Position numbers and translations under genes: made by a program. A stretch of DNA of 47,862 bases, taken from Thermoproteota archaeon. Its GTDB lineage: Archaea > Korarchaeota > Korarchaeia > Korarchaeales > Korarchaeaceae. The DNA lies in contig JAOZGJ010000012.1 of NCBI GenBank assembly GCA_027491785.1, positions 1 through 47,862 on the forward strand. Reading direction: 5' to 3'. The notes under the pieces are model-generated. The model had not been told where the DNA came from. It was given only the letters and a program-made list of their open reading frames with translations, and did no database searches. Position 1 is the first letter of the stretch; each line of letters starts with the position of its first letter. This document shows, in pieces, positions 2,945 through 37,999 of the stretch.

Positions 2945-3250
2945 TCAAAGCTCTGTACCGTAACTCACAGCTTCCCTAACTATCCCCAACTCGTCCTTCT
3001 TCCTCTCGAATTCCTCGACCGTATAACAGAGGAACTCTAGCGGCAGCACTACTCCCTTCCTATAGAGATGTTTAAGGAGCAATGCTGCTCTCCTAATGAA
3101 GGGAACCCCCTCGAACCTCTTGGACACCACTATGAGATCGTAATCGCTGTGCTTAAGATGGTCCCCTCTCGCCCTAGAACCGAAGAGGATTATCCTAGCT
3201 TCAGGATCCCACTCCCTTATCACTTTGACGATCTCATCGATCTCCTGCAT
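2945..3250 (-). CDS. MNT-type nucleotidyltransferase (antitoxin of HEPN/MNT pair 1), 101 aa
   Basis: This is a minimal nucleotidyltransferase of the pol-beta superfamily. The motif GSRARGD-x6-SDYDLIVV near residues 25-43 supplies the Gly-Ser and the two metal-binding Asp of active MNT domains. It overlaps the end of the upstream HEPN gene by 31 bases, so the order is HEPN then MNT. In characterised HEPN/MNT modules the MNT protein neutralises the HEPN RNase, in some cases by adding AMP to it. Family assignment is firm; the antitoxin role is inferred from the arrangement. Confidence 0.85.
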   Translation of the reverse strand: MQEIDEIVKVIREWDPEARIILFGSRARGDHLKHSDYDLIVVSKRFEGVPFIRRAALLLKHLYRKGVVLPLEFLCYTVEEFERKKDELGIVREAVSYGTEL

Positions 3251-3606
3251 GCCTCCATCACCCTTTCTGCTGTCCTGATATGCTTACTAGCTATGTTCTC
3301 ATTATACATCTCCGCTGGGATGCCGTTAGCAGCATCAGGATATTTAGTCACAGAATATTCGGGATTCAGCTCCATGAGATCCTCTAGAAGATCTTCCATG
3401 CCGAGGGCCTTGCCCAGTTCAACTAAATTATGAGTTTTTGGGTATAGTTCCCTCCTCAGTTCTATGTAAGCAGCCTTGAGGAATTTTTCAGCTACTTGAT
3501 GAGAGAAGAACACGGAGGCATAGTAACGACCAGCTTTCAGCAGTATCTTAGCTGTTTTCAAGTCCTCTAGTCCTTGCTTCCATAAGGCCTCGGATTCCGG
3601 TCTCAC
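3220..3606 (-). CDS. HEPN domain protein (putative RNase toxin of pair 1), 128 aa
   Basis: This all-helical HEPN protein has the family pattern: an N-terminal helix with a Lys-x-Ala core, the HQVAEKFLKAAY helix (about residues 36-47), KTHNLVEL (about 57-64) and a TKYPDA loop (about 86-91). The Rx4-6H RNase motif of the HepT branch is not obvious; KTH may be the equivalent. The start is a GTG at 3606. An AT-rich imperfect palindrome (3627-3651) containing a TATA-like core precedes it and could be promoter and operator for the pair. Confidence 0.82.
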   Translation of the reverse strand: MRPESEALWKQGLEDLKTAKILLKAGRYYASVFFSHQVAEKFLKAAYIELRRELYPKTHNLVELGKALGMEDLLEDLMELNPEYSVTKYPDAANGIPAEMYNENIASKHIRTAERVMEACRRSMRSSK

Positions 3607-3824: not shown

Positions 3825-4754
3825 CTAGGCGTACTTCTCTAGGATCTCCATGAGCTCTATCATCTTATCCAAGATCTTAGAATCTGCCTGCCCATTGATT
3901 ATCGGATCTATGCTGGGTTCCACTTCCAGCAGGGTTTCATCGAAGGGGAGCACCGTAACAGTATCGAAATCGACCTTTCCCATGGAATTCATCCATTTAT
4001 TAACCTTATCTACATCTGCCTGCTTCCTTACCTTATTTACCACCAAGTGAATATGCTTTATGTTAAGCTCCTTTGCCAGCTTCCCCAAGTAGACACCTAC
4101 CTGTATGGAATTGAAGGAGGGCTCGGTCACTATGACGGCTTGGGAAAATCCCTCGGATATTGCTCTTCCGAAGTGCTCCATTCCCGCTTGCGTGTCCATT
4201 AATATGACTTCCTTCTCTCTAAGGATTATGTAGTCCATTACAGCATCTAGCAGCGCATTCTCAGGGCACATGCATCCGGTCGCTGCTTGAACCACGGTTC
4301 CCATGACTAGAAGCCTCACCCCATCTGGTCCTGTGAGGCCGAACCTCTCCACGACATCATCCACATCAGGACTGAGCCTTAGGTAGATCCCCCACCCTTC
4401 TCCAGGTCTAGCGCCTGTCTTTTCTTCTATGTAATCAGCGTTCTTGCTTAATGGAACTATTCTGCTCGCTTCCTCTGGAGGGAGGCCTAGAGCAAAGGGT
4501 AGATTCATCTGAGGATCTTCATCTACAGCCAGTACTTTGTAGCCCTTTCTAGCGAACAATCTAGCGAGAATAGCAGTAATTGTAGTCTTTCCAGCCCCAC
4601 CCTTACCTGTAACGACTACTCTAAATCCTTCTTCCTTTGCACCAGTTTTCTTCGCCATTTCCTTTATCCTAGTAGCTAGATCAAATGTTTTCTCCTTCCA
4701 TTCCTTTGTTTTCTCGAAGGAAGCTGAAGGGAAGTATTTCTCAGGTTCGGACAA
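3825..4754 (-). CDS. cooC: CooC, CO dehydrogenase nickel-insertion ATPase, 309 aa
   Basis: This MinD/CooC-type P-loop ATPase couples ATP hydrolysis to nickel insertion into the C-cluster of CooS. The deviant Walker A GKGGAGKTT starts near residue 50, a MNLPFALG stretch follows the second Asp motif, and the CooC-type Cys pair is in CMCPEN near residue 162. The start is TTG with GGTGGT just upstream. It carries about 45 extra residues before the P-loop compared with classical CooC, which begins almost at the motif. An internal ATG (Met33) is possible, but the upstream codons look coding. It is the last gene of the cooF-cooS-FNOR-cooC operon. Confidence 0.87.
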   Translation of the reverse strand: MSEPEKYFPSASFEKTKEWKEKTFDLATRIKEMAKKTGAKEEGFRVVVTGKGGAGKTTITAILARLFARKGYKVLAVDEDPQMNLPFALGLPPEEASRIVPLSKNADYIEEKTGARPGEGWGIYLRLSPDVDDVVERFGLTGPDGVRLLVMGTVVQAATGCMCPENALLDAVMDYIILREKEVILMDTQAGMEHFGRAISEGFSQAVIVTEPSFNSIQVGVYLGKLAKELNIKHIHLVVNKVRKQADVDKVNKWMNSMGKVDFDTVTVLPFDETLLEVEPSIDPIINGQADSKILDKMIELMEILEKYA

Positions 4755-4787: not shown

Positions 4788-5138
4788 TTAATATGAGGGG
4801 GATAGAGGATATAAGGATGCATACCCTTCCCCCTCAAGCAGGGCGTTCGCAATTACTCTACCAATATTGAATTTATCGCTCAATATAATATCTTTAAATG
4901 CCGATATATCCCTCTTACTCACCATCAGGGAATTATAAATGCCCGCGTTCTTCCTAGTGTTGATCAGCATATATCCTACGATCCTATTGTCCTTCAAGTA
5001 CATCTTCTTGTAAACGCCATCCTCAAAGTTCTTCAGGACCTCCCCCTCATAGTGGCCATCCGAGACCACAGGTACGTTGAACACCCTGATTATCGTCTGT
5101 ATCGTGGATCCGAGGTACTTGACCCTCCTTCCAACCAT
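4788..5138 (-). CDS. C-terminal fragment of the split FAD/NAD(P) oxidoreductase (FNOR), 116 aa
   Basis: This is the dimerisation domain of a NADH-oxidase-like flavoprotein, cut from its N-terminal part. It begins at MVGRRVKYLGST, which in intact relatives directly follows the AGYNM helix ending the FAD domain. The first in-frame ATG lies inside the second copy of a 24-base repeat, two to six codons after a TAA. The true reading continues from the preceding gene: deleting the 61 bases between the repeat starts (5130 and 5191) joins both parts in one frame of about 423 residues. As written it is probably a fragment and not an independent protein. Confidence 0.7.
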   Translation of the reverse strand: MVGRRVKYLGSTIQTIIRVFNVPVVSDGHYEGEVLKNFEDGVYKKMYLKDNRIVGYMLINTRKNAGIYNSLMVSKRDISAFKDIILSDKFNIGRVIANALLEGEGYASLYPLSPSY

Positions 5139-5214
5139 GTTATAACCGGCTATACGTTATACCTCACAACTATCCCCTGGACCCCTCTGATCCAACCATG
5201 TTATAACCGGCTAT
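5130..5214 (-). repeat. 24-base direct repeat bounding a 37-base insert in the FNOR gene
   Basis: The 24 bases at 5130-5153 and 5191-5214 are identical and encode IAGYNMVG. The 37 bases between them carry in-frame stops. The copies are 61 bases apart, which shifts the frame by one. Recombination or slippage between them would remove exactly 61 bases and restore one open reading frame. The insert itself is not repeated, so this is not a simple tandem duplication. Confidence 0.9.
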
Positions 5215-6120
5215 CGATCCTTGAATGAGAGCATTGGACCATAGGAGGATAGGCCTTTCCTCACCAGTTACTATATCTATCGCTTCAGCTATATCACCTG
5301 CAGCGTACACGTCCCTCGCACTAGTCTCCATGAATTCGTTAACGATTATCCCACCGCGTTCCTTGAACTTGATACCACTGTCCCTAATTACGTCCTTGTT
5401 AGGCCTGACCCCGGTAGCCACTACGACCATGTCAGCATCCAGTACCCTGCCATCTCCCAACCTCACTTGGCTCACGACACCATCACCCACTACCTCAGTT
5501 ACCCTGCTATTAACGAGCGCCTCGACCCCGTTCCTCTCGACTATCTCCTTGACTATAGTTCCCATCTCTCGATCGAACATGGCTGGAAGGAGCCTATCTA
5601 GAAGTTCGACTATGGTTACCTTAACCCCATGGGCTTTAAGTCCTATAGCAGCATCCAAGCCTATGAATCCTCCTCCTATCACGACAGCTTTCTCCACATC
5701 ATGGTGCTTCAGCCATTCGTGCATCCTATCTGCATCTTCCAGGGTCTTAAACGTGAACACTCCCTCCTTATCCAATCCACCTATTGGAGGAAGCGCCACC
5801 TTACCCCCAGCAGCTATTAAGAGCTTATCATAGCCTATAGTCTCACTGCCAACCTTTACCGTCTTCTTCTCAGTATCTATTCGGCTAACGGGCTTGCCCA
5901 ATATGGGAGTGACATCCATTCTCTCATAGAAATCCTTACCCTTCCAGAAGACCCTATCCCTCTCCTTTTCATTCTCCAAGTAATCTACGAGAACGCAGGC
6001 AGAGTAGGGGGGAGTATCCTCCCTCGATATCATGATTATCTCGGATGAATCATCGTACCTCCTTATGGATTCCACAGCACTCACGCCAGCTCCTCCAGTT
6101 CCTATTATGACAAATCTCAT
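5170..6120 (-). CDS. FAD/NAD(P)-dependent oxidoreductase (FNOR) of the CODH operon, N-terminal part, 316 aa
   Basis: This flavoprotein of the NADH oxidase/nitrite reductase family has a FAD-binding GTGGAG at its N-terminus, a second dinucleotide-binding GGGFIG near residue 152, and the FAD signature VYAAGDIAEA near residue 274. The chosen start is the ATG at 6120, where the Rossmann strand begins; the frame stays open to a GTG at 6129. A CooF-linked flavin oxidoreductase next to cooS is known in several CODH clusters and is thought to move CO-derived electrons to NAD(P). The frame stops at 5170 because of the insertion, losing the C-terminal domain. cooS is 38-47 bases upstream. Confidence 0.82.
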   Translation of the reverse strand: MRFVIIGTGGAGVSAVESIRRYDDSSEIIMISREDTPPYSACVLVDYLENEKERDRVFWKGKDFYERMDVTPILGKPVSRIDTEKKTVKVGSETIGYDKLLIAAGGKVALPPIGGLDKEGVFTFKTLEDADRMHEWLKHHDVEKAVVIGGGFIGLDAAIGLKAHGVKVTIVELLDRLLPAMFDREMGTIVKEIVERNGVEALVNSRVTEVVGDGVVSQVRLGDGRVLDADMVVVATGVRPNKDVIRDSGIKFKERGGIIVNEFMETSARDVYAAGDIAEAIDIVTGEERPILLWSNALIQGSIAGYNMVGSEGSRG

Positions 6121-6140
6121 ACCTAACACCCTATCTAAGC

Positions 6141-6167: not shown

Positions 6168-8044
6168 TTAGGGAAGCCCTAGGGCCTTCCTCTTCTTCTC
6201 TATATGGTCTATTATCAGTTTAGCCTCCTTCTCAGGATCCGGATCTACAGCGAAGGTTGCTCCTATAACATCGTCTAGATCCCTTGTAAGAAGATTCGTT
6301 ACGTTCACGCTACCTAGCACCGGAGGAACTGGTCCCAGCACAGTGAATATCCCGCTTGCCACAACATATGTCCCTATGCTAACCGCCTTCTCGGACATCC
6401 ACTCGGGGGCGGCACCTGCTATCGGCAGGTCGCTTATATCTACCCCGAGGTACTTGGCCACCTCCGCGGCCAGCACCAAAATCCTGCTGTTATCAACGCA
6501 AGATCCCATGTGAAGCACGGGAGGTATCCCATATTTCTTGCAGAATTCCCTTAGCCCTTCTCCTGCTAGATCAGCTGCTTCTGGAGTCATTAATCCCGCC
6601 TTACCGTTAGCTATGGCGGCGCACCCAGTCTCCACCACCAAGATGTTGTGCTCTATGAGCCTCTTCGTCAGGGTGACGTGGTTGTAGTCCTGCTTTATCT
6701 TCGGGTTGTTGCATCCGACTATGCCAGCGACTCCCCTTATCTTGCCTTCCTTAATTGCATCGACTAGAGGCTTGACTGAACCACCGAACGCCTTTAATAT
6801 GGCTTCAACGGAGAATCCAGCGAGGAGCTTCATGGATCTCTTGGGTATCCTCACCCTATCTGGGTTCCTATTCTCATACGCCTCTATAGCCATCTTCAAT
6901 ATCTCCTTTGCCGTGTCATAGCCATGCTCCGGCTCAAACTGCACGTGAATGGCTCCTGGGATCTTGGCCTTGTCCGATGTGGTGACCACCTTCGTATGAT
7001 AGCACTTGGCTATGTGAGTAACGGCGGGCATTATACACTGATAATCGACTATCATCACTTCAACTGCACCGGTAGCTATAGCTAGCTCCTGTAGGAGGAA
7101 GTTACCAGCAATTGGGATCCCCTGCCTCATCAGGAGTTCATTCCCAGTGCAGCACATTCCAACAACGTTTATCCCCTTGGCCCCTTTCTCCTGAGCCAGT
7201 TTAACTAGTTCAGGATCCTTAGCAGCCTTGGCTATCATGAAGGAGAGGACAGGATTGTGGCCATGCACCACGACGTTGACCATATCCTCCCTTAGGACGC
7301 CGAGATTGACCATTCCCTCCAAGGGTTCTGGTGTTCCGAACAGGACATCACTGAGCTCCGTTGCTATCATCGATCCTCCCCAGCCGTCAGCTATAGCTGC
7401 CCTTACCCCCTGCAGCAGTATGCTAACGTAATCTGCATCGACCCCTATATGGGTCCTGTGCATTATCTCGACTATCTCCCTGTCAATCCCTCTGGGAGTT
7501 ACACCCAGCTTCTCCCAGACCTTCTTCCTCTTATCGGGAGCCCTTTCCACGAATTGTATCCTATCTTTAATCATTCCGAATTCCCTCATCATCTCTATTG
7601 CCAAGTCCTTCGCTATTTCCTGGGGACTCCTGCCATCCACCTGGATCCCGTATTCATTGGCCAGCCTCTTAAGCTTCTCAACATCTGTCAGTTCATATCC
7701 CTGTGCCTCTCCCAAGGCAGTCTTGTACAACACCTCGACTATATCCCTGCCATGATCTGAATGAGCTGCTGCACCTCCTGCTATCATCCTAGCTAGATTC
7801 CTAGCTACGATCGTATCTGCATCAGCTCCACATACGCCCCTCTTCGGACCGTTCCCGAAGGGATCGATCCTACATGGTCCCATACCGCAGTTCCTGCAGC
7901 ATATCCCCAGGAGGCCGTAGCCGCATTGGGGCTGCTGTGCCTCTAACCTGTCCCACGCTGTCTCGAGGTGTTCTTGGGCAGCAACCTCAACATCTCTTGG
8001 GCGGCAGGGTCATACGATCTCTTCAAGATATCCTCCTTCCTCAT
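6168..8044 (-). CDS. cooS: CooS, Ni-Fe carbon monoxide dehydrogenase catalytic subunit, frameshifted near its N-terminus
   Basis: CooS interconverts CO and CO2 at a Ni-Fe-S C-cluster. From the ATG at 8044 (GGAGGTGA just upstream, overlapping the cooF stop) the reading gives SYDPAAQEMLR and then leaves frame; the frame from about 7984 on gives VAAQEHLETAWDR through to 6168. One missing G between 7985 and 7984 explains this. The restored protein is about 625 aa, normal for CooS. D- and B-cluster Cys fall at 41, 49, 50, 53, 58 and 72, the same spacing as the Carboxydothermus enzyme. C-cluster ligands are present in HGHNP, CCTGNE, YQCIMP, VGCNN, TGCAA and GSCVDNS. The uninterrupted main frame runs 6168-7883. 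Confidence 0.88.
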
Positions 8045-8053
8045 AAAATCACA

Positions 8054-8671
8054 TCACCTCCCACCAACCTCCTTCATAGAACGACCCAACTCCCGCCACA
8101 AGCGTATATTATCGGGGACAGCTTCCTCTATCATCTCTTCCCCTATCTCAGTGGCTAGTACTATCCTCTTAGCCGTTTCCTTCCTTTCCTCCTTGAGAAT
8201 TTCGTTTATATCTCCGTAAACCAGTGCACCTGTCTTACAGGCCTCGACGCAAGCAGGTAGCAGCCCTTCTCTCACCCTGTCTATGCAGTTATCGCATTTG
8301 GTAGCTACTTCCCTATCTATGGCTATCTTCCAGCTTCTCTTGTAAGTTATAACGTCGAAGGGACATACTATCGCGCACATACCACAAGCTATGCATTTCT
8401 CCTCATTTATCACGACGGTATCGTATTCGCTTACTCTAGTTATGGCGCCTGTTGGGCAGACCTGCATGCAAGGAGCCGGATCACAGTGCCTGCATTTATT
8501 CGGGAAGGTTCTTATCCCTATCGTAGGAGTCACGTGGATCCTAGGCGTTGGAGGGGGATCCTCGTATATAGCTGTGAAGAGGTTCTTCGTCTTGGAGTGT
8601 TCGACTGCACATGCGATCTCACACTGCTTGCAGCCAATGCATCTCTCAGGCCTTACAAATACGGTCTTCAT
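8054..8671 (-). CDS. cooF: CooF-like polyferredoxin, 205 aa
   Basis: This ferredoxin-like electron carrier takes electrons from CooS. Four Cys-rich clusters are visible: CIGCKQCEIAC, CRHCDPAPCMQVC, CIACGMCAIVC and CDNCIDRVREGLLPACVEAC, enough for four [4Fe-4S] centres as in the CooF/HycB family. The ATG at 8671 is preferred because GGGTG lies about six bases upstream; a GTG at 8680 would add three residues. Its TGA is nine bases before the cooS ATG and overlaps the cooS ribosome site, so the pair is coupled. It leads the CODH operon. Confidence 0.88.
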   Translation of the reverse strand: MKTVFVRPERCIGCKQCEIACAVEHSKTKNLFTAIYEDPPPTPRIHVTPTIGIRTFPNKCRHCDPAPCMQVCPTGAITRVSEYDTVVINEEKCIACGMCAIVCPFDVITYKRSWKIAIDREVATKCDNCIDRVREGLLPACVEACKTGALVYGDINEILKEERKETAKRIVLATEIGEEMIEEAVPDNIRLWRELGRSMKEVGGR

Positions 8672-8711
8672 GAAAAACACCCGGGAGTTTGCTAATCTTT
8701 CTCTCCTCTCT

Positions 8712-12896: not shown

Positions 12897-13328
12897 ATGG
12901 AGGATCATTCACAGGGATACATGTTGGTTGAGAGGAGTAAAGACTGGTTGGATCAGGCTGAGTGGGATCTAGAACATGCAAAGCACGATCTTGAAGCTGG
13001 TTTTTATGATTGGGCCTGTTTCTCAGCTCAGCAGGCGGCTGAAAAGGCAGTTAAGGCGGTTATTCAGAGGCAAGGTGGGGAGGCCTGGGGGCATTCCGTC
13101 TATGAGCTACTTCTTGAAATTAGGGGAAAGTTCGAGTTCAAGTTCGATGTTGATTCTCTCCTAGATAAGGCTTTAGAGCTAGATAAAGCCTATATACCAA
13201 CTAGATATCCAAATGCTCACCCTTCCCTATCTCCAAGGAGGAGATATACGAAGATAGAGGCTGAGAGGTTAATATCATATGCGGAGGAGATCGTTAATGT
13301 GTGTAAAAGTATATTATCCAAGATATAG
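12897..13328 (+). CDS. HEPN domain protein (pair 2), 143 aa
   Basis: This helical HEPN protein shows the pattern WLDQAEWDLEHAKHDL near residue 18, the Cys-x-Ser-Ala-Gln-Gln-Ala-Ala-Glu-Lys helix near residue 40, and the TRYPNAHPSL loop near residue 102. As in pair 1, no clear Rx4-6H motif is visible. It is followed by an overlapping MNT gene, the typical toxin-first order. A direct repeat GCTAAA-CCT-GCTAAA at about 12872-12887 lies just upstream and may be regulatory. The pair is transcribed against its neighbours. Confidence 0.83.
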   Translation: MEDHSQGYMLVERSKDWLDQAEWDLEHAKHDLEAGFYDWACFSAQQAAEKAVKAVIQRQGGEAWGHSVYELLLEIRGKFEFKFDVDSLLDKALELDKAYIPTRYPNAHPSLSPRRRYTKIEAERLISYAEEIVNVCKSILSKI

Positions 13329-13629
13329 CAGGGAGCACGTTATAAGGGCCCTTAAGGAATACTTTTCTAAGAATGCGGGTAAGCTGGGCATCCTAGAAGT
13401 ATATCTCTTCGGCTCCTATGCGCGAGGCGATCAAACAGCCTTCAGCGATATAGACTTGCTGATCGTAGTTGGAGATGGTGTTGATCGTGATAGGCTTTAC
13501 TTGGAGCTCAGAAAGAGCATCGATATCAGGGGACTCGAGCCGCAGATAATAAACTTGAGCGATTATTTAAAAATGAAAGCCGGAAGGTGGATAAGGACTA
13601 TAAAGAGTGAGGGAGTAAGGATCTATTAG
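13297..13629 (+). CDS. MNT-type nucleotidyltransferase (pair 2), 110 aa
   Basis: This minimal nucleotidyltransferase has GSYARGDQTAFSDIDLLIV near residue 35, with complete catalytic Gly-Ser and double-Asp motifs. The ATG at 13297 is chosen because GGAGGAGA lies six bases upstream; the frame is open to an earlier ATG at 13279. It overlaps the HEPN gene by 32 bases in another frame, almost the same overlap as in pair 1. It probably neutralises the HEPN partner. Confidence 0.84.
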   Translation: MCVKVYYPRYSREHVIRALKEYFSKNAGKLGILEVYLFGSYARGDQTAFSDIDLLIVVGDGVDRDRLYLELRKSIDIRGLEPQIINLSDYLKMKAGRWIRTIKSEGVRIY

Positions 13630-19666: not shown

Positions 19667-20302
19667 TCATCTGCTCTTTACCTTTATCAGTGAGTTAATC
19701 CTTTCTTCTATCTTTTTTTGCCCTTTTACGCTCCTCTCCTTCAGGATCTCAATGTACTTCCTGATCTTATTCGTATCGATTATCTCAAGCAGCCCAGGTA
19801 TGATATCATCGCTCGCTGGATACCTGAAGTATATGATATCTATAAGCGTCTTCTCAGGATCTGAAACCCTTACCCACTCTCTTAAATCCCCTAAATACTT
19901 GTACTCATATCCAAAATACATTTTACTTGAGATTTTTCTAAGTACTACCTTGAAACCAGCCACTTCACGAACTCCATGCTTGGCGATTCTCGAAACATCA
20001 GGGGAGAGTATGGTAACTGCTGTTACTTGGTTCCATGCCCCATGAAGGAATGCTGCTGATCCCAGTCCCACATAAGCTCTAGGCAGTGCTTTAGCCACCA
20101 TATAAGGCGATTTCTTGAAGGAGTACACTCCTTTCAATAGCTCAACTATCTGACCCTTCCTCCTCAAGTTATGAATGAGAACCTTGGCATAATTCCTCCC
20201 CACTGCTGCCTCAACTGACCTGAATGTGAAGAGAGATGCCTCCTTCAGCTTCTGAACGAGTTCGGAATGCCTAGTGGGCAAATCTCTCAACCTTCCTGAC
20301 AA
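19667..20302 (-). CDS. AbiEi-family antitoxin/transcriptional repressor, 211 aa
   Basis: This is the antitoxin of a type IV AbiE system. An N-terminal winged helix (about residues 10-60, ending in LLKGVYSFKK) is followed by the AbiEi C-terminal domain with AYVGLGSAAFLHG and RVSDPEKTLIDIIYF (about 146-160). It overlaps the end of the toxin gene by 32 bases. In known systems AbiEi represses its own promoter by binding two inverted repeats, and such a pair is present upstream of this operon. Confidence 0.82.
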   Translation of the reverse strand: MSGRLRDLPTRHSELVQKLKEASLFTFRSVEAAVGRNYAKVLIHNLRRKGQIVELLKGVYSFKKSPYMVAKALPRAYVGLGSAAFLHGAWNQVTAVTILSPDVSRIAKHGVREVAGFKVVLRKISSKMYFGYEYKYLGDLREWVRVSDPEKTLIDIIYFRYPASDDIIPGLLEIIDTNKIRKYIEILKERSVKGQKKIEERINSLIKVKSR

Positions 20303-20906
20303 TGGTCTCGAAGCTGGGGGGCCTTCCCATCAGCACAATCTCCTTCAGTATGGGGTAGTCCTCCGGTGGGCTCTTCAGGATGTATAGGAGTTCCTTGATA
20401 GGATTCCTTATTGACTTATCTTCACACATATCCAAGAGGTAGTACACGTCGTACAGATCTCTAGCCTTTCTCCTATTCATGTAAGCCCGTATCTTCTCCT
20501 CTAGGAGGGAGCAAGGTGACAGGGTCTTTACAACGATGCTGCTACCATCAATAAGCCAGAAGTCTTCCTCAATCACCTCCTTATCCTCGAACATGGGAGA
20601 AGCCTCTAGCTCCACCTCCGCTCCATCACTAACCCTTAGGTAGAGAACCCTAGAGGGTGTGATCTTCACCCTAGTTACGTTTAGGGCAGAGGAAAGGATC
20701 TCGGGAATCTTCTCAATATCTTGGCAGTATACATCCACGTCATATGAGAACCTCTTCCCCCCGTAAATCCTCCATATGGCCGTACCTCCATGTACTATGA
20801 AATCCACTTTCCTCGATAGTTCTAGAACAAGTGCATCCTGCACCTCAGCTATCTTAAGCATGGCACCCTTCAGTACCCTCATTAGAGGGATCCTCTTGTA
20901 CATCAT
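20271..20906 (-). CDS. AbiEii-family nucleotidyltransferase toxin, 211 aa
   Basis: This AbiEii/AbiGii-type nucleotidyltransferase has the core HGGTAIWRIYGG then RFSYDVDVYC (about residues 39-62), and SPCSLLEEKIRAYMNRRKARDLYDVYYLL (about 129-157) holds the conserved K/R-x-RDxYD motif. Characterised relatives block growth by modifying tRNA acceptor ends. The first of two adjacent ATG codons is given (20904-20906); the second is at once downstream. Here the toxin gene comes first, reversed from the common antitoxin-first order. Confidence 0.83.
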   Translation of the reverse strand: MMYKRIPLMRVLKGAMLKIAEVQDALVLELSRKVDFIVHGGTAIWRIYGGKRFSYDVDVYCQDIEKIPEILSSALNVTRVKITPSRVLYLRVSDGAEVELEASPMFEDKEVIEEDFWLIDGSSIVVKTLSPCSLLEEKIRAYMNRRKARDLYDVYYLLDMCEDKSIRNPIKELLYILKSPPEDYPILKEIVLMGRPPSFETIVRKVERFAH

Positions 20907-37558: not shown

Positions 37559-37999
37559 TTAGTTGCTAGACTCTAGATATAACCTAACATATCGAATGAA
37601 CTCCTCTAGATCATCCAATCTCCCCTTAAGAAAGCCATACAGCTTATTCAAGTCCGCCTCACCATATTGATGTACTAGTATGTTTCTAAAGCCTGCCATA
37701 GGAGCAATCTTCTCGGAAAATTCTCTTGGAAGAACTTCAAGTTCTCCTAACTTTAGAAAGATCTCTCTATAGGTTTCAGGCATTTTAGCTCCCTCCTGAG
37801 AGAGTACCATCTCCCCTATGTCTATAGCTGCCTCTATCGCTATCTCGAAGTTCCTCTTGATAGCGCTTCTCAGCTCGTAGTTTGATTCTAAATCAGTTAA
37901 ACTGACATTCTCCTTACTCTTGAGATATAATAGCGCCCTCTCAAGATACCTCAATCTATCAGAAATCTTCTCCTTGAAGAACAAGTTATCATCCCACAC
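37559..37999 (-). CDS. HepT-like HEPN (DUF86) RNase, 146 aa
   Basis: This HEPN protein carries the full catalytic motif Rx4HxY as RNILVHQYGE near residue 108, preceded by MAGF. The N-terminal helices (ISDRLRYLERALLYLK) and FEIAIEAAIDIGEMVLS near residue 54 match the DUF86/HepT family. HepT is the RNase toxin of MntA/HepT modules. No intact MntA gene adjoins it: the frame overlapping its GTG start by 11 bases is only 35 codons long and lacks the nucleotidyltransferase motif. Confidence 0.83.
   Translation of the reverse strand: MWDDNLFFKEKISDRLRYLERALLYLKSKENVSLTDLESNYELRSAIKRNFEIAIEAAIDIGEMVLSQEGAKMPETYREIFLKLGELEVLPREFSEKIAPMAGFRNILVHQYGEADLNKLYGFLKGRLDDLEEFIRYVRLYLESSN

Follow-up and report, generated by a model that had tools for sequence, protein, structure and literature searches.

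A 61-base insertion with CRISPR-unit geometry in an archaeal FNOR gene: a candidate off-target spacer integration

How did the flavoprotein oxidoreductase (FNOR) gene of a CO-dehydrogenase operon come to be broken by 61 extra bases, 24 of which repeat the adjoining coding sequence exactly? The gene belongs to an uncultured archaeon and lies on contig C12 of its draft genome (1.79 Mb in 114 contigs, 95% complete, 6.96% contamination). This contig, 47,862 nucleotides in full, is the window of our analysis, and outside the insertion it matches other members of the genus, the best places being 73-89% identical. On balance, we think that the 61 bases were probably gained in a single off-target integration of a CRISPR spacer by Cas1-Cas2.

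The interrupted gene and its operon

The N-terminal part of the FNOR gene (5170-6129, minus strand) encodes the FAD and NAD domains of a pyridine nucleotide-disulphide oxidoreductase (Pyr_redox_2, 1.1e-68) and is truncated by the insert. The C-terminal part (4788-5138, minus strand) is out of frame after the insertion; its product matches a Rubredoxin_C-type domain at 3.6e-5, just under the curated cut-off, and aligns with residues 290-414 of the FNOR relative from G026, a genome of the same phylum (locus L003). At the junction, two perfect copies of a 24-base direct repeat, R (TCCAACCATGTTATAACCGGCTAT), lie 61 bases apart, start to start, at 5191-5214 on the side of the N-terminal part and at 5130-5153 on the side of the C-terminal part. 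Between them are 37 unrelated bases, S (5154-5190), which on the minus strand, like both copies of R, belong to the reading direction of the gene and introduce an in-frame stop. On neither side do the bases next to the two copies agree, and the length of R is thus exactly 24. About 2e-9 exact 24-mer repeats would be expected by chance at offsets of 58-68 in the 48-kb window, and a chance origin of the pair is negligible.

The upstream copy of R encodes IAGYNMVG in frame with the N-terminal part, residues that are conserved in relatives. The initial annotation had described these identical 24-base copies, separated by 37 bases, and had proposed that removal of 61 bases yields one protein of normal length. 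Both points are confirmed: when the flanks are joined, a single protein of 426 residues from a GTG, or 423 from an internal ATG, is obtained, and the relatives from G026 and from a Lokiarchaeota MAG (L006) measure 416 and 411 aa, respectively. Neither relative is interrupted at the insertion point, and the ancestral site was a single copy of the target. Since both read straight through, R is original coding sequence, with S and one R gained later; the copy at 5130-5153 is the second copy of the duplicated 24-bp target. The proposal that the insertion is secondary and breaks a normally single gene is thereby upheld. In a DNA search, none of the 15 further genomes of the genus gave the FNOR gene, a short weak match in G007 aside, which is not located within a comparable operon.

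The operon has the order cooF, cooS, FNOR, cooC, all on the minus strand. Its cooF-like ferredoxin gene (8054-8680) and its cooC-like maturation ATPase gene (3825-4754; 309 aa, as in G026) are intact. The cooS gene for the CO dehydrogenase catalytic subunit (6168-8044) apparently starts at a late internal ATG at 7883. The true start lies further upstream, at 8044, directly after cooF, from where the frame reads MRKEDILKRSYDPAAQEML and then shifts to VAAQEHLETAWDRLEAQQPQCGYGLLG. Set against G026 (KRSNDPAAQKMLEVTAEEH) and L006, cooS appears to lack a single base near 7987/7988, and the portion cut off by this frameshift (7883-8044, minus strand) holds conserved cysteines of CO dehydrogenase. Elsewhere in the 48-kb window, the main ORFs are free of obvious breaks, and two neighbouring pairs that had looked suspicious are ordinary toxin-antitoxin pairs. 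Because both visible lesions of the contig fall in this one accessory operon, decay of the operon is suggested, with base-level errors as the alternative. Selection against damage to FNOR is probably weak, given that the same operon carries the cooS frameshift. The initial annotation had offered three origins for the insertion: a reversible switch, a recent inactivating mutation or an assembly join. Inactivation fits best among them and is now accompanied by a second lesion in the operon; in this respect its interpretation is partly supported, and its observation is confirmed.

HEPN/nucleotidyltransferase and AbiE-type toxin-antitoxin pairs are found in the window at 12897-13629 and 19667-20906, and further pairs of a similar kind at 2945-3606 and 37559-37999.

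CRISPR repeat-spacer units of the genus

What the initial annotation missed is that the 61-base geometry equals that of a CRISPR repeat-spacer unit of the genus: 24 + 37 = 61 is one such unit within the range of the congener arrays. The host genome contains two cas1 genes, on contigs C98 and C83. On C83, a csa1-cas1-cas2-cas4 cassette (typed by PADLOC models) is intact, and intact cas1 and cas2 are thus present in the same genome as the insertion. The orthologous cassette of the congener G012, whose Cas1 is 62% identical to that of C83, adjoins 24-nt repeats (GAATCCCGAAGAGGGAGTTGAAAG). Spacers in G012 are mostly 37-41 nt long (periods mostly 61-65), ranging from 34 to 42 nt in the 24-nt array and again mostly 37-41 nt in a 25-nt array. 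In a second congener, G002, the corresponding cassette (Cas1 66% identical to C83 Cas1) is accompanied by repeats of 23-24 nt with periods of 60-64. The duplication of exactly 24 bp therefore compares with the 24-nt repeats next to the orthologous cassettes, a repeat length taken from the congeners and not from a host array, and the 37 nt of S fall inside the congener spacer range (34-42 nt in the 24-nt array of G012).

Searches of the host assembly with the repeat pattern and with a three-unit TTGAAA pattern did not find a 24-nt-repeat array, and a lone match to the array pattern on contig C40 looks like chance. The missing array is unsurprising, since C83 ends 141 bp past csa1 and thus stops short of the distance at which the orthologous cassettes carry their arrays (about 237-446 bp past csa1). 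CRISPR arrays commonly break assemblies. A likeness between the end of C83 and the G012 leader was dismissed, as it covers only 14 bp and does not exceed the best of 500 shuffles. Four short host contigs (L074, L075, L083 and L088) are entirely N-masked, which leaves a few kilobases outside the examined sequence.

The Cas1 of C98 was rejected as the maker of the insertion; it is associated with 37-nt repeats and predicts a duplication of 37 bp, not 24. The array on this contig (L020 6463-9197; G000:C98:16362-19096) consists of 34 identical 37-nt repeats with spacers mostly of 39-49 nt, and one of its repeat-spacer units is exactly duplicated beside the contig end. On C83, genes at L018 1864-6747 and 13017-15781 (G000:C83) encode Cas7, Cas5 and Cas3 that score best with subtype I-B models, and the assignment of this contig is mixed, the same contig carrying a Csa1-type (I-A) adaptation cassette.

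We infer that the C83 cassette is responsible for the insertion, that the array belonging to it has repeats of 24 nt and that S came from a foreign source. Cas1-Cas2 carrying a DNA fragment of about 37 bp would have attacked the FNOR gene instead of a CRISPR array, and its two 3' ends would have been joined to opposite strands at points separated by 24 bp, which is the length of the repeats that go with this type of cassette. Filling of the gaps would then have duplicated the 24-bp target, resulting in R-S-R and a broken FNOR gene. Later deletion of the insert through recombination or slippage at the 24-bp repeats would be possible in principle, as a side effect and not as evidence of a switch.

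When the source of S was sought at up to 3 mismatches in the host assembly and in 28 relatives, no further copy turned up. Neither strand nearby offers a template, and the IMG/VR viral contigs, phages and plasmids searched gave no convincing match. Partial matches in viral contigs reach 26/37 at best, consistent with chance. Most spacers have no known source.

Alternative origins of the insertion

The main rival to off-target integration is an assembly artefact, in which reads from a strain variant or from another organism were joined at a shared 24-mer and no cell carries R-S-R. We regard this as unlikely, while giving it more weight than any other alternative. The draft is fragmented and partly contaminated (114 contigs, 6.96%), and the one-base deletion in the nearby cooS could also be a consensus error. 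Such a join, which the initial annotation had also considered, does not predict the combination of 24 and 37 bases, and it would need a source DNA for S that starts after R and stops before R. Moreover, an overlap of 24 bases would be unusual as a k-mer size, the usual sizes being odd, and apart from the two lesions the main ORFs of the window have no obvious breaks, the suspicious neighbours being ordinary toxin-antitoxin pairs.

A rare replication or end-joining error, capturing a 37-base filler at a break and duplicating 24 bp of flank, would yield the same topology, and it would have struck an operon that is apparently under weak selection. This origin appears improbable: a host-templated repair error or template switching is disfavoured because S has neither another copy nor a local template, on either strand, nearby or in the assembly, and the values of 24 and 37 would both have to coincide by chance with the CRISPR unit of the genus. 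A hairpin or template-switch origin was likewise rejected, as R-S-R folds no better than shuffled sequences do (z -0.18) and no template was found.

Could R-S-R itself be a young CRISPR locus? We consider it very improbable that this candidate off-target insertion marks the natural birth of a new locus, able to gain spacers or to be transcribed with the operon; if true, this would show how ordinary genes can give rise to arrays in nature. The structure is not a CRISPR array proper, as it has one spacer only and R is unlike the repeats of the genus. With 5-6 matches out of 24, R resembles the array repeat no better than random window positions do, and the idea that R is a CRISPR-repeat-like sequence was dropped, the similarity not being above chance. 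At up to 3 mismatches, R is absent elsewhere in the 1.79-Mb host assembly.

A remnant of a mobile element, or a very small one, with a 24-bp target-site duplication is highly improbable. Insertion with duplication of the target is the general signature of transposition, and as in transposon target-site duplications, a direct duplication flanks the insert. Unlike a transposon, however, R-S-R carries neither terminal inverted repeats (as judged by eye for S) nor a transposase, its body measures 37 bp, it occurs in one copy only, and a duplication of 24 bp is unusually long. To our knowledge, this exceeds what is usual for known mobile elements, and we know of no transposon that fits R-S-R.

Equally hard to credit is phase variation, with the 24-bp repeats serving as a dedicated on/off switch that slippage or recombination could reverse, as initially proposed: although precise deletion between perfect repeats would restore the frame and is physically possible, the assembly holds no second allele, the arrangement is not conserved (the relatives being uninterrupted), the deletion would be one-way, since S has no other copy, and cooS, another gene of the operon, is broken as well. 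Slippage might remove the insert but could not have produced it, because S does not copy any nearby sequence; as S is unlike its surroundings, an origin by tandem duplication was also rejected.

Insertion site and comparison with known adaptation systems

Directly upstream of the duplicated target on the gene strand lie the four bases ATCG (5215-5218, minus strand), with which the leaders of both 24-nt-repeat arrays of G012 also end. The match is suggestive only, being short, chosen in retrospect and without an in-register counterpart in the G002 leader. Such weak similarity at the site is acceptable for off-target integration, because published Cas1-Cas2 complexes integrate non-specifically or at junction-like sites (PMC5815122, PMC6895254). 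The second of the two G012 arrays lies at about 3030-4500 of L162 (G012:C2), and its leader ends in GCATCG, as does that of the L063 array.

Most of what is known of off-target spacer integration comes from laboratory systems and in vitro assays. Nivala, Shipman and Church reportedly found, in 2018, that an insert of spacer size had entered the chromosome outside CRISPR, between copies of a repeat-length duplication. R-S-R is like these E. coli inserts in combining a spacer-sized insert outside CRISPR with a duplication, here of the repeat length seen in congeners; unlike them, it is apparently natural and lies inside a metabolic gene of an uncultured archaeon with a Csa1-type cassette. As cited in a later article, the E. 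coli work reported non-array integration in the genome, in laboratory E. coli with overexpressed Cas1-Cas2 (Nivala 2018, in PMC11788318).

Closer in gene content is Sulfolobus type I-A adaptation, for which the host has the same csa1-cas1-cas2-cas4 set. Previous in vitro experiments showed that the Sulfolobus Cas1-Cas2 integrates non-specifically without host factors (Rollie et al., PMC5815122); these used plasmids, whereas R-S-R is a genomic scar. For the type II-A Cas1-Cas2 of Streptococcus thermophilus in vitro, off-target sites are similar to the leader-repeat junction and not to the whole repeat, and the position of the second cut is set by a ruler (Kim et al. 2019, PMC6895254). Our site may show a weak form of this, in that ATCG agrees with the G012 leader end and R is not repeat-like; the type II-A system differs in its 36-nt repeat and in its mostly half-site integrations on plasmids.

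If R-S-R is such a natural scar, Cas1-Cas2 mutates host genes outside the laboratory. The locus also offers a search rule, namely an exact repeat-length duplication around a spacer-length insert that is absent in relatives, which could be used to measure the frequency of such events across genomes and to find newborn CRISPR loci. A single example of R-S-R is known in the host. We scanned stretches totalling about 0.41 Mb of host and about 0.40 Mb of G012 sequence for exact repeats, 16 bases or longer, at a spacing of 30-200. Structures of this type are rare, as these roughly 0.8 Mb of genus DNA gave no other unit like 24 + 37 in an ordinary gene outside arrays. The other repeats in the scan were CRISPR arrays, repetitive protein-coding or low-complexity DNA, and a few pairs of 16-18 bases; a 26-bp repeat in L077 with a spacing of 123 is apparently an in-frame protein repeat.
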